DNA from: Actinomycetes bacterium
Lineage (GTDB): Bacteria; Actinomycetota; Actinomycetes; S36-B12; UBA5976
DNA: 11,580 bases
NCBI GenBank assembly: GCA_021784375.1
Contig: JAJXSV010000054.1
Location: 1 to 11,580 of the forward strand
Direction: 5' to 3'
The notes beneath the pieces were generated by a model that saw only the letters and a program-made list of their open reading frames with translations, did no database searches and was not told where the DNA came from. A program made the translations under genes and the position numbers. Of the stretch, positions 3,731 to 6,305 are shown piece after piece (position 1 is the stretch's first letter; every line of letters begins with the position of its first letter).

Positions 3731-3901
3731 CTAGGCGCGGTCGCGGCCCTGCGGTCGCTCGTCGCCCTGCCGCCGCCTCACCGCCTCGCGGAGCAGTACC
3801 TCGACCTCTGCGTTGACGCTACGCAGGTCCGAGGCCGCGAGTCGTTCGATCTCGGCCCACAGTTGCGGATCGATGCGCAGCGGGAACTGCTTGCGGCTCA
3901 A
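3731..3901 (-). CDS. Arc-type ribbon-helix-helix DNA-binding protein
   Basis: This 56-residue protein starts at TTG (3901-3899) and begins SRKQFPLRIDPQLWAEIERL. It has the full Arc-repressor layout: a beta strand with alternating side chains (about residues 4-10, KQFPLRI) that would enter the major groove as a dimer, helix A (about 12-24) and helix B opening with LRSVNAEVEVLLREA (26-40). That matches the RSVNSEI helix-B start of phage P22 Arc. The tail is rich in Arg, Gln and Asp and is probably disordered. The start is supported by GAGGAG four bases upstream; no other start codon fits between it and the upstream in-frame stop. It lies 15 bases downstream of the SPFH gene, in the same frame, so the two are surely co-transcribed. 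It could instead be a solitary antitoxin-like protein, but no toxin gene is adjacent. The inferred role is an autoregulator of the SPFH unit, acting at the tandem palindromes upstream. Confidence 0.82.
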   Translation of the reverse strand: MSRKQFPLRIDPQLWAEIERLAASDLRSVNAEVEVLLREAVRRRQGDERPQGRDRA

Positions 3902-3905
3902 GTTG

Positions 3906-3911
3906 CTCCTC
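3906..3911 (-). promoter_or_regulatory. Ribosome binding site of the ribbon-helix-helix gene
   Basis: GAGGAG on the minus strand lies four bases before the TTG start. It sits between the SPFH stop and the small gene and is what supports a TTG start for a reading frame this short. Confidence 0.7.
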
Positions 3912-3916
3912 GTCGA

Positions 3917-4822
3917 CTACGCGTACAGCGTCCCGGTGTTGACGATGGGCGTCACTTCGCCCTCGCCACACAGCACCACCATGAGGTTGCTCACCATGGC
4001 GGCCTTGCGCTCGTCATCGAGGTCGACGACCTGCGCCGCCGCCAGTTCATGCAGGGCCATCTCCACCATGCTCACCGCGCCCACCACGATCTTGCGGCGG
4101 GCCGCGATGACCGCCTCTGCCTGTTGACGCCGCAGCATGGCCTGGGCGATCTCGGGCGCATAGGCGAGGTGCGTGAGCCGGGCGTCATCGACGACGACCC
4201 CCGCGACGGCCAGCCTCGCCCCCAGGTCCTTGCGCAGGGCCGTGGAGACCTCGTCTGGATTGCTGCGCAGGGTGACCTCGCCGCTGTTCTCGTCGTCACC
4301 ATGGTCATAGGCATAGGCCGTGGCGACGTGGCGCAGCGCCGTCTCGGCCTGGGTCGACACATAGGTCTCGAAGTCCTCGACGTCGAAGGTCGCCTGGGCC
4401 GTGTCCTCGACATGCCACACGATCATGGCCGCGATCTCGATGGGGTTGCCGCGGCGGTCGTTCACCTTGAGCCGGTCACCGAGCAGCGTGCGTGCACGGA
4501 GGGACACCTTGTAGCGGTTCTTGGCCGAGCTGAGGAAGGGATTGGCCCACTTGAACCCACCGGCCCGCACGGTGCCCGCATAACTGCCGAACAGTACGAG
4601 CACGCGGGCCTCATTGGGCTGGAGGGTGAAGTAGCCGGGAGCGGTCAGGATGCCGAGCAGGGCAAGCAGGACCCCCGCCCCCACGAGCCAGGGGTTGGCG
4701 CCGTTCCCCCCGCCGGTCACTCCCGCGCGGACGATGAGGGCGACAGCGCCGATGGCGAGCACGATGGTGACGGGCAGCACTGCTGCGCCGCGGGGAACCG
4801 AAGCCTGACGCTCGGTGGTCAT
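3917..4822 (-). CDS. SPFH/band-7 domain membrane protein
   Basis: The 301-residue protein has two predicted membrane helices near the N-terminus (about residues 13-35 and 43-60), then an SPFH/PHB (stomatin-like) domain. This starts at PNEARVLVLFGSYAGTV (about 69-85) and includes NPFL, GNPIEIAAMIVWHVED and a Gln/Ala-rich helical stretch, HLAYAPEIAQAMLRRQQAEA. The conserved C-terminus reads DERKAAMVSNLMVVLCG and ends NTGTLYA. SPFH proteins form large membrane-bound oligomers linked to membrane microdomains or protease control; no exact substrate is known for this actinobacterial subgroup. The ATG is supported by GGGAGG five bases upstream. It is the first gene of a two-gene unit with the ribbon-helix-helix protein, and the 88-base gap before it carries tandem TGATATCA palindromes, so expression is probably repressed by the small partner. 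Nothing suggests truncation. Confidence 0.92.
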   Translation of the reverse strand: MTTERQASVPRGAAVLPVTIVLAIGAVALIVRAGVTGGGNGANPWLVGAGVLLALLGILTAPGYFTLQPNEARVLVLFGSYAGTVRAGGFKWANPFLSSAKNRYKVSLRARTLLGDRLKVNDRRGNPIEIAAMIVWHVEDTAQATFDVEDFETYVSTQAETALRHVATAYAYDHGDDENSGEVTLRSNPDEVSTALRKDLGARLAVAGVVVDDARLTHLAYAPEIAQAMLRRQQAEAVIAARRKIVVGAVSMVEMALHELAAAQVVDLDDERKAAMVSNLMVVLCGEGEVTPIVNTGTLYA

Positions 4823-4841
4823 GGGAGCCTCCCGGTCAATC

Positions 4842-4860
4842 TGATATCACATTGATATCA
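4842..4860. promoter_or_regulatory. Tandem TGATATCA palindromes, probable operator of the SPFH / ribbon-helix-helix unit
   Basis: Two identical perfect 8-base palindromes, TGATATCA (4842-4849 and 4853-4860), are separated by CAT, so their centres are 11 bp apart, about one helical turn. The site is strikingly AT-rich for this GC-rich window. It ends 20 bases before the SPFH start, just upstream of its ribosome binding site, and overlaps a possible -10 box. Arc-family repressors bind as dimers to half-sites about one turn apart, and an Arc-like protein is encoded by the second gene of this unit. Binding by that protein is inference. Confidence 0.72.
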
Positions 4861-4880
4861 CTCTCGGTCGACGGCCACAA
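4852..4880 (-). promoter_or_regulatory. Possible promoter of the SPFH unit
   Basis: On the minus strand TTGTGG (4880-4875) is followed after 17 bases by TATCAA (4857-4852), a weak match to a -35/-10 pair. The -10 overlaps the upstream TGATATCA box, which would let a bound protein block transcription. Confidence 0.3.
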
Positions 4881-4910
4881 CCGTCCGCGAGGGGATCGGG
4901 CGCCGCGGCG

Positions 4911-6293
4911 TCACTCCAGCGGGTGCAGTTGGCGCGCCGCTTCGGCAATGGAACCGGTGAGCGACGGGTACACGGTGAAGGTGGCGGCCAGGTCATCGAC
5001 GGTGAGCCGCTTGGTCACCGCGAGCGCCAGGGTCGCGATGAGTTCGCTGGCCCGGGGCGCGACCACCACGCCGCCCAGCACCACGCCCGAGCCCGGATCG
5101 CAGAACACCTTCACGAAGCCCTCGCGCACGTTCTGCATCTTCGCTCGCGCGTTCGTGTGCAGCGGCAGCAGGATGCCCTCTGCCACCACGGCTCCGGCGT
5201 CGACCTGGGCCTGGCTCACGCCGACCGTGGCAATCTCCGGGTCGGTGAAGATGTTGGCGGTCACCAAGCGCACGTCGAGCGGCGCCACCGCAGCCCCGAG
5301 GGCGTGGCGCATGGCGATACGGCCCTGCATGGCCGCGACCGACGCGAGCATGAGGACGCCCGTGCAATCGCCGGCAGCATAGACGCCTCGCACATTGGTG
5401 CGTGAGACGCGGTCGACCACGATGTGCCCGCTCGCGGAGGTGTCCACCCCCACCGCGTCCAGGCCCAGCCACTCCGTGTTGGGAAGGGAGCCCACGGCCA
5501 TCAGGCAGTGTGAGCCCTCCACGGTACGGCCGTCAGCGAGGGTGACGACCACGGAATCCCCTTGGCGCACCACGGATTCCGCCCGCGCGCGCGAGACGAC
5601 GGCGATACCGCGCCGCGCGGACACGGCCTCGATGACGTTGGCGGCGTCCGCATCCTGCCCGGGGAGCACGTGGTCCCGTGACGACACGAGTGTCACCTTG
5701 CTCCCGAGCCCGTGGTAAGCGCTCATGAACTCGGCACCGGTGACACCGGAGCCGACGACGATCAGGTGTGAGGGGAGCACCTCGAGGTCGTACAACTGCT
5801 TCCAGGTGAGGATGCGCTCGCCGTCGGGCAGTGCCGTCGGGAGTTCGCGCGGACGGGCGCCGGAGCTGATGAGCACGACATCAGCGGCCAGGGACTCGTC
5901 GAGCCCGCGCACACCGACCAGTCCTGCCGAGTGGAGGAATCCCTCACCACGGATGATGCGGATGCCCTCCGAGCGAAGGCGCTCACCGATGTCCGCGCTC
6001 TGGGCCTCGGCGAGTTCCCGGACGTGCGCGTTCAGGGTGCGGATGTCGACACCCACGCGCGAGTACGAGGTCTTGCGGCCATCGAACTCGAGGCCGAAGC
6101 GGGCGCCCTCGACGGCCCGGGTGAGGATGTTCGCCGCTTCGATGGCGCTCTTGCTCGGTACGACATCGGTGAGCACTGCGGCCCCACCAAGCCCGTCACG
6201 CTCCACGACGGTGACCTCCGCGCCCAGCTGGGCCGCGACCAGTGCCGCCTCGTAGCCGCCCGGTCCCCCACCGATGATCACGACCCGCGTCAT
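4911..6293 (-). CDS. lpdA: LpdA-type NAD(P)H-quinone / flavoprotein disulfide reductase-family oxidoreductase
   Basis: This 460-residue FAD-dependent pyridine nucleotide oxidoreductase resembles M. tuberculosis LpdA (Rv3303c), a quinone reductase, rather than true lipoamide dehydrogenase. The FAD-binding GGGPGG is at residues 8-13, the NAD(P)H-binding fold has IVVGSGVTGAEF, and FAD is closed by IYAAGDCTG-like YAAGDCTG. The C-terminal dimerisation domain reads FTDPEIATVGV and VYPSLTGSIAEAAR. The active-site loop is GGAAVLTDVVPSK: both cysteines of the canonical GGTCLNVGCIPSK loop are missing (Ala39, Val44), and the C-terminal His-Glu dyad (HPTLSE) is replaced by YPSLTG. Dithiol chemistry is therefore excluded, and two-electron reduction of quinones or similar acceptors is the likely reaction. 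The ATG at 6293 is chosen because AGGTGG lies four bases upstream and the FAD motif follows at once; an upstream extension in the open frame is not family-like. It is divergent from the cyclotransferase-like gene. Confidence 0.92.
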   Translation of the reverse strand: MTRVVIIGGGPGGYEAALVAAQLGAEVTVVERDGLGGAAVLTDVVPSKSAIEAANILTRAVEGARFGLEFDGRKTSYSRVGVDIRTLNAHVRELAEAQSADIGERLRSEGIRIIRGEGFLHSAGLVGVRGLDESLAADVVLISSGARPRELPTALPDGERILTWKQLYDLEVLPSHLIVVGSGVTGAEFMSAYHGLGSKVTLVSSRDHVLPGQDADAANVIEAVSARRGIAVVSRARAESVVRQGDSVVVTLADGRTVEGSHCLMAVGSLPNTEWLGLDAVGVDTSASGHIVVDRVSRTNVRGVYAAGDCTGVLMLASVAAMQGRIAMRHALGAAVAPLDVRLVTANIFTDPEIATVGVSQAQVDAGAVVAEGILLPLHTNARAKMQNVREGFVKVFCDPGSGVVLGGVVVAPRASELIATLALAVTKRLTVDDLAATFTVYPSLTGSIAEAARQLHPLE

Positions 6294-6297
6294 CTCG

Positions 6298-6305
6298 CCA
6301 CCTTT
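6298..6305 (-). promoter_or_regulatory. Ribosome binding site of lpdA
   Basis: AAAGGTGG on the minus strand, four bases before the ATG at 6293, decides the lpdA start against longer reading-frame extensions into the divergent gene. Confidence 0.7.

Follow-up and report, generated by a model that had tools for sequence, protein, structure and literature searches.

The window (the whole 11,580-nucleotide stretch of DNA analysed here) carries on its minus strand a gene for an SPFH/Band 7 membrane protein, followed after 15 nt by a gene for a 56-residue protein resembling ribbon-helix-helix (RHH) regulators. Two perfect TGATATCA palindromes precede the SPFH gene, the nearer one 19 bp from its start codon. 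The features of the locus are as follows.

3731 to 3901, minus strand: RHH-like gene (Arc/CopG/HicB superfamily), the proposed autorepressor; 56 aa, TTG start (ORF call)
3906 to 3911, minus strand: likely ribosome-binding site of the RHH gene, GAGGAG (direct reading)
3917 to 4822, minus strand: SPFH/Band 7 membrane protein, 301 aa (Pfam Band_7, E 2.8e-23, and alignment)
4828 to 4833, minus strand: likely ribosome-binding site of the SPFH gene, GGGAGG (direct reading)
4831 to 4838, minus strand: weak third operator position, TGACCGGG (implied by the 30-bp model)
4842 to 4849, no strand: candidate operator box, perfect TGATATCA (motif search); central position where the 30-bp model scores highest in the window (26.5)
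4852 to 4857, minus strand: possible -10 element TATCAA, tentative (by eye); overlaps the box at 4853-4860
4853 to 4860, no strand: candidate operator box, perfect TGATATCA (motif search); 11 bp from the other box
4875 to 4880, minus strand: possible -35 element TTGTGG, tentative and weak (by eye); 17 bp before the possible -10 element

The initial annotation had reported an SPFH gene with a 56-residue small gene 15 bases downstream, two perfect TGATATCA boxes 11 bp apart before the SPFH start, and an AT-rich patch. The coordinates of both genes were confirmed, with a Band_7 match at E 2.8e-23; the boxes lie at 4842-4849 and 4853-4860, and the GC content falls to 0.52 at 4825-4874, compared with 0.66-0.82 in the 50-base windows of 4600-5100 outside 4800-4899. 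A search for the double box with up to 3 mismatches gave one match in the window, with 0 mismatches, against a shuffle mean of 0.01. The weak third operator position at 4831-4838 overlaps the SPFH ribosome-binding site. A consensus promoter scan of the window returned nothing above threshold and picked up neither TATCAA nor TTGTGG. Upstream of the operator on the same strand (4911-6299) lies an ordinary neighbour, a match to NAD(P)H-quinone dehydrogenase (NCBIfam PRK07845.1).

The SPFH protein scores 83.3 bits against Pfam Band_7 (cut-off 23.6) and contains two N-terminal hydrophobic stretches, as judged by eye, and a C-terminus, NTGTLY, that is conserved in the alignment. It reaches neither the HflK equivalog (18.7 against an NCBIfam cut-off of 159.4 bits) nor the HflC equivalog (15 against 134.4 bits), and prohibitin 1 (E 0.00096) is the one PDB entry matched by its sequence. 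In close relatives, the SPFH protein is about 80% identical to that of the window. Bacterial SPFH proteins are widespread, and many of them have no clear function.

The small protein had been called Arc-type, a description that holds at the superfamily level only, the window protein passing no Pfam cut-off: its single match is HicB (E 0.024, 15 bits against a cut-off of 21). Among 92 relatives, Pfam matches at E<=0.01 comprise ParD_like (30), HicB (26), RHH_5 (18, best 1e-5) and Arc (5). Across 124 loci including that of the window, R9, R27, S28 and N30 are invariant and K4 is present in 98%. We take these residues to fit the RHH pattern, with roles assigned by analogy with Arc, and the 124 loci have in common a basic residue of the strand and S/N where helix B begins. 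The sole PDB sequence match of the protein is an Arc variant (E 0.81, not significant). AlphaFold monomer models, built with 25 and 92 sequences, predict a single uninterrupted helix spanning residues 12 to 47/48 and no strand, and so fail to support an RHH fold; their pTM is 0.48-0.50, and an isolated chain says little about a dimer whose subunits intertwine. By its sequence pattern, the small protein is tentatively assigned to RHH at the superfamily level.

Co-occurrence of the SPFH and RHH genes

Relatives were collected by a scan with an SPFH alignment, one genome per species, which used neither the small gene nor the boxes; the best 80 of at least 544 confirmed candidates formed the first set. 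These loci come from Verrucomicrobia, Actinobacteria, Coriobacteriia, Planctomycetota, Acidobacteria, Proteobacteria, Aminicenantes and others by record title, and the pair is not confined to Actinobacteria. The expectation that the RHH gene follows SPFH was borne out in 75 of these best 80 loci; in two of the five without it, L032 and L042, the sequence breaks off 3 and 301 bp beyond SPFH. Upstream, 74 of the 80 loci have a perfect TGATATCA, and L001, L011, L035, L041, L054 and L066 do not. In L054 hardly any sequence precedes SPFH. The arrays of L001 and L035 are good (scores 24.1 and 19.7) but contain CGATATCA variants, and L011, L041 and L066 have neither a perfect box nor an RHH gene.

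In a whole-genome survey, RHH and SPFH were searched separately on the same 690 genomes, of which 296 belong to the phylum of Bifidobacterium simiarum (G017, locus L070), 249 to that of a Burkholderiales genome (G018, L071) and 145 to that of a Verrucomicrobia genome (G001, L002). Only the top first-look candidates were scored, and absences are therefore less sure than presences. Strong RHH matches (E <= 3.4e-12) occur in 31, 19 and 4 genomes of the three phyla, respectively, and SPFH matches at E <= 8.6e-67 in 30, 20 and 4. A strong RHH match accompanies SPFH in 30/30, 19/20 and 4/4 genomes, 53 of 54 in total. The exception, G385, has an SPFH match of comparable score (5.6e-67) with neither RHH nor site. 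In G064, the remaining one of the 31 actinobacterial genomes with a strong RHH match, SPFH is present as a fragment cut by a contig end. SPFH also matches less strongly, and with no RHH, in G339 (1.2e-49) and G209 (2.4e-23), and G135 has a second, weak SPFH (9.6e-24). Weak RHH matches in genomes without SPFH number 4, 6 and 1 in the three phyla; the site was found at none of the four such orphan loci examined of the 11, all four from Pseudomonadota. Pairwise distances of the SPFH and RHH proteins correlate over 124 loci (r 0.59), a value as high occurring in 0 of 1000 permutations.

Several loci depart from the simple arrangement. G082 has a second, weaker RHH match with no site or SPFH of its own. 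In L090, a second, weaker RHH relative (5789-5953, 52 bits) stands about 1.7 kb beyond the first; a 450-aa gene precedes it, and it has no operator of its own. L089 (3501-4041), a close relative of the window (75.9% over 170 aa), lacks the first half of its SPFH gene, with TGATATCA directly at the junction, and its RHH gene is open; this locus is either a decayed copy or an assembly fault.

Some loci carry a further gene between SPFH and RHH. It encodes a PH-domain membrane protein in L013, L016 and L065 (Pfam bPH_5) and, by clustering, in L014, L018 and L029; a DUF1648 protein in L071, with a match below the cut-off in L056 and a similar protein by eye in L080; and a YbjQ protein in L047. Among 110 stretches compared, an ABC-ATPase-like cluster occurs in 20 and a PadR-like cluster in 7. 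These intervening and neighbouring genes hint at a role in the envelope. The PadR-like gene stands beside the SPFH-RHH pair in Streptomyces-like loci (L107, L109 and L112-L116; before SPFH in L113), several of which also have ABC/FtsX-like genes by eye. In the neighbour clusters listed, only SPFH and RHH are common to nearly all loci.

The operator array and its distribution

When sites were aligned on the box, further boxes appeared at -11 and +11 of the central one with mirror-image spacers, giving a consensus of about GATATCAATG TGATATCA CATTGATATC. The alignment has 76 rows, two of them from the window, and its central box is invariant by selection. From these flanking boxes, the full operator is predicted to be a 30-bp array of three boxes at 11-bp pitch. 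The tandem palindrome pair of the initial annotation is better described as complete 8-bp palindromes in an array of 11-bp pitch that is threefold in the consensus of relatives. In the window, the middle and one flanking box are perfect and the third position is weak; two good boxes are also found in several Pseudomonadota, for example L131, L133 and L134, and Streptomyces-like loci (a label given partly by gene content) keep little beyond the central box.

The box is far more frequent than expected by chance. Of 107 loci (duplicates included), 99 have a perfect TGATATCA in the 300 bp before SPFH, where no other 8-mer is as common; first-order random sequences would give 0.39 in total. A control stretch inside the SPFH gene contains it in 0/107 loci.

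Follow-up loci comprised 29 from the G017 phylum and 21 SPFH+RHH loci from the G018 and G001 phyla. An operator-like site precedes SPFH in 28/28 of the former with upstream sequence (L101 is cut) and in 21/21 of the latter, with a perfect TGATATCA in 25/28 and 18/21, respectively. The 28 include L089 and one duplicate, L096, of L039. Eight control loci, four with SPFH and no RHH and four with a weak RHH and no SPFH, have no site before the gene, and their best score anywhere is 7.4.

For the pooled set, two duplicates were dropped and six loci skipped, five for short sequence after SPFH and one for short sequence before it. Of the first 80 loci, 74 served to train the site model. With a threshold of 8, chosen after the scores were known, a site within about 400 bp upstream of SPFH was found in 120/120 deduplicated SPFH+RHH loci; 116 reach 12 and 4 fall below it. 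The sites of 112 contain a perfect TGATATCA, and those of the other 8 do not. No SPFH locus was thus found that keeps the small gene and lacks the site, the outcome that would have spoken against the initial annotation. Among SPFH loci without RHH, the site occurs in 0/5, a class that is thin because it has only five members, two of which (L145 and L146) are distant SPFH paralogues. Of the skipped loci, L009, L032 and L042 have the site, and L136 and L137, from the RHH-less G385 and G339, do not. Deduplicated loci outside the training set gave 48/48 at a score of at least 8 and 44/48 at 12 or more. In other 430-bp stretches of the same loci, with the SPFH upstream region excluded, 0/2222 reach 8; a less fair null, which instead excludes stretches with a perfect box, gives 14/2507.

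The double box (up to 2 mismatches) was also searched in 28 whole genomes, with the reversed pattern as control. It has 31 matches in 20 of the 28 genomes, 25 of them at SPFH/RHH loci. The remaining 6 compare with 4 matches of the control pattern, and neither SPFH nor RHH was found within about 3 kb of them. A regulon beyond the SPFH locus was therefore rejected, with the six matches taken as chance, and the site appears, from these pattern counts, to be dedicated to the SPFH/RHH locus. Of the 25 positive genomes among the 28, 24 have one RHH match each. The exception, Collinsella provencensis (G021, locus L077), carries a further RHH and a further operator together with additional SPFH pieces; in this second locus (L081), SPFH, RHH and operator lie in pieces amid unknown bases and repeated flanks, perhaps a scaffolding artefact.

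Regulation of the unit

At 99 sites, TTGACA-like sequences (at least 5 of 6) cluster before the box: 63 fall between -31 and -17 relative to it, and the rest of the stretch from -45 to +9 has 12; the array thus spans from the -35 element to the likely start site. Tandem phased sites therefore lie at the promoter of the unit itself, its overlap being read from the -35-like elements of relatives and its two genes presumably being co-transcribed. Because the RHH protein is the only regulator common to nearly all loci in the clusters listed, and SPFH loci without RHH have no site, it is the natural candidate to bind the boxes. The self-regulation proposed in the initial annotation is strongly supported by this comparison, with a site in 120/120 loci that have the small gene and 0/5 that do not. 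Its further proposals, a small protein that senses SPFH dosage and a tight feedback on the scaffold, are hypothetical. We put the probability at about 85% that the SPFH gene, the RHH gene and the boxes form one autoregulated unit, in which the RHH protein would be a dedicated autorepressor of its own promoter; DNA binding, repression, cooperativity and co-transcription are what we infer for it.

In the proposed mechanism, the small protein would form a ribbon-helix-helix dimer, and two or three dimers would sit side by side, one per TGATATCA box and with one box per helical turn. The bound dimers would cover the SPFH promoter and block RNA polymerase. Since the small gene follows SPFH in the same orientation, the RHH protein would keep down its own synthesis as well as that of the SPFH protein and, in some lineages, that of small membrane proteins whose genes lie between the two.

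The boxes might instead serve another regulator, unlinked or neighbouring, while the RHH protein does something else. The PadR-like gene of Streptomyces-like genomes is such a neighbour: it adjoins the unit in 7/109 relative loci (Pfam PadR, E 6.7e-15, in the one tested). AGCTAG adjoins the central box in L107, L109, L112 and L116, where its position beside a single central TGATATCA suggests two overlapping operators. The PadR cluster, however, is confined to 7 loci against a site in 120/120 SPFH+RHH loci, no other regulator family is common to nearly all loci in the clusters listed, and RHH-less SPFH loci have no site, which makes this reading unlikely. As a second regulator of the unit, the clusters listed gave only the PadR-like gene, in its 7 loci. 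Binding sites by themselves do not tell repression from activation, and the RHH protein could bind the boxes and activate the promoter or shape the DNA with no repression; in many relatives, however, the boxes lie just downstream of -35-like elements, where a bound protein is expected to hinder polymerase, and we consider this variant quite improbable.

The Pfam matches of relatives include the antitoxins ParD_like and HicB, and antitoxins often autorepress, so that the pair could be a toxin-antitoxin or conflict module with the RHH protein as antitoxin and SPFH or the intervening gene as its partner. The partner, however, is a Band_7 protein, no toxin-like cluster recurs beside the unit (by eye, in the neighbour clusters listed) and PADLOC has no model match for the two proteins of the window; we regard this module as unsupported and very improbable. 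That the boxes are chance palindromes of an AT-rich promoter can practically be dismissed: the local GC dip is real, but perfect boxes stand in 99/107 loci where 0.39 were expected, and the double box of the window had an expectation of 0.01.

For the autoregulated unit, the simplest reading of its purpose is homeostasis of the scaffold level. It could also act as a sensor of membrane state, a speculative and rather doubtful extension in which the SPFH assembly would capture the RHH protein upon membrane disturbance, the three-box operator would open and more scaffold would be made. Small membrane proteins or exporter genes alongside might be raised as well in some lineages, an equally tentative corollary. 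If true, the sensor would be an envelope-stress circuit in one operon, spread over several phyla, with no kinase, sigma factor or ligand domain.

That a linked small regulator and its fixed operator persist from Actinobacteria to Verrucomicrobia and Proteobacteria would mean that the level of this SPFH subfamily is held or switched, and the recurrence of the trio in several phyla suggests a widespread self-limiting switch. It also offers a handle on the scaffold level, in that loss of the 56-aa gene or a change in one box should alter the amount of SPFH protein. The TGATATCA box can serve as a simple annotation marker for this SPFH subfamily.

Comparison with known systems

Arc, a small RHH repressor of phage P22, binds as two dimers to operator half-sites about one helical turn (11 bp) apart. 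The protein described here is likewise small, its F-x-L-R ... R-S-V-N residues align with an Arc variant, and its sites are one turn apart. Unlike Arc, it is encoded by a chromosomal gene tied to SPFH, the TGATATCA box is threefold in the consensus and the Arc match has an E value of only 0.81. MetJ, CopG and omega are RHH repressors acting on tandem boxes, and the proposed unit would resemble them in having more than one RHH dimer on short, phased repeats at a promoter and in regulating itself. It differs from them in boxes, pitch and regulated gene, and 56 aa are too short for a co-repressor domain.

The SPFH protein has the Band_7 domain in common with HflK/HflC, prohibitin, stomatin and flotillin, whereas it falls far below both NCBIfam cut-offs for HflK and HflC. 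Control by a linked RHH gene is not known for any of these families. In Bacillus subtilis, the ArsR-type autorepressor SdpR is captured by the membrane protein SdpI. The present unit resembles SdpR-SdpI in that a small putative autorepressor is encoded with a membrane protein, and DUF1648, found in L071 and below the cut-off in L056, is a domain of SdpI-like proteins. In contrast to the ArsR-type SdpR, the regulator here is RHH-type, and its capture at the membrane is hypothetical.

In a search of the open-access literature, no title listed deals with the SPFH-RHH pair or its box. The terms SPFH and ribbon-helix-helix both occur in one article (PMC8656257), the latter only in the reference list. 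A table of a Bifidobacterium longum transcriptome study gives an SPFH gene of unspecified subfamily a value of 2.02 under inflammatory factors (PMC7701253). Autorepressing RHH proteins on phased boxes and the SPFH family are known already; new, among the titles listed, are the fixed pairing of the two, the three-box operator and the spread over several phyla.
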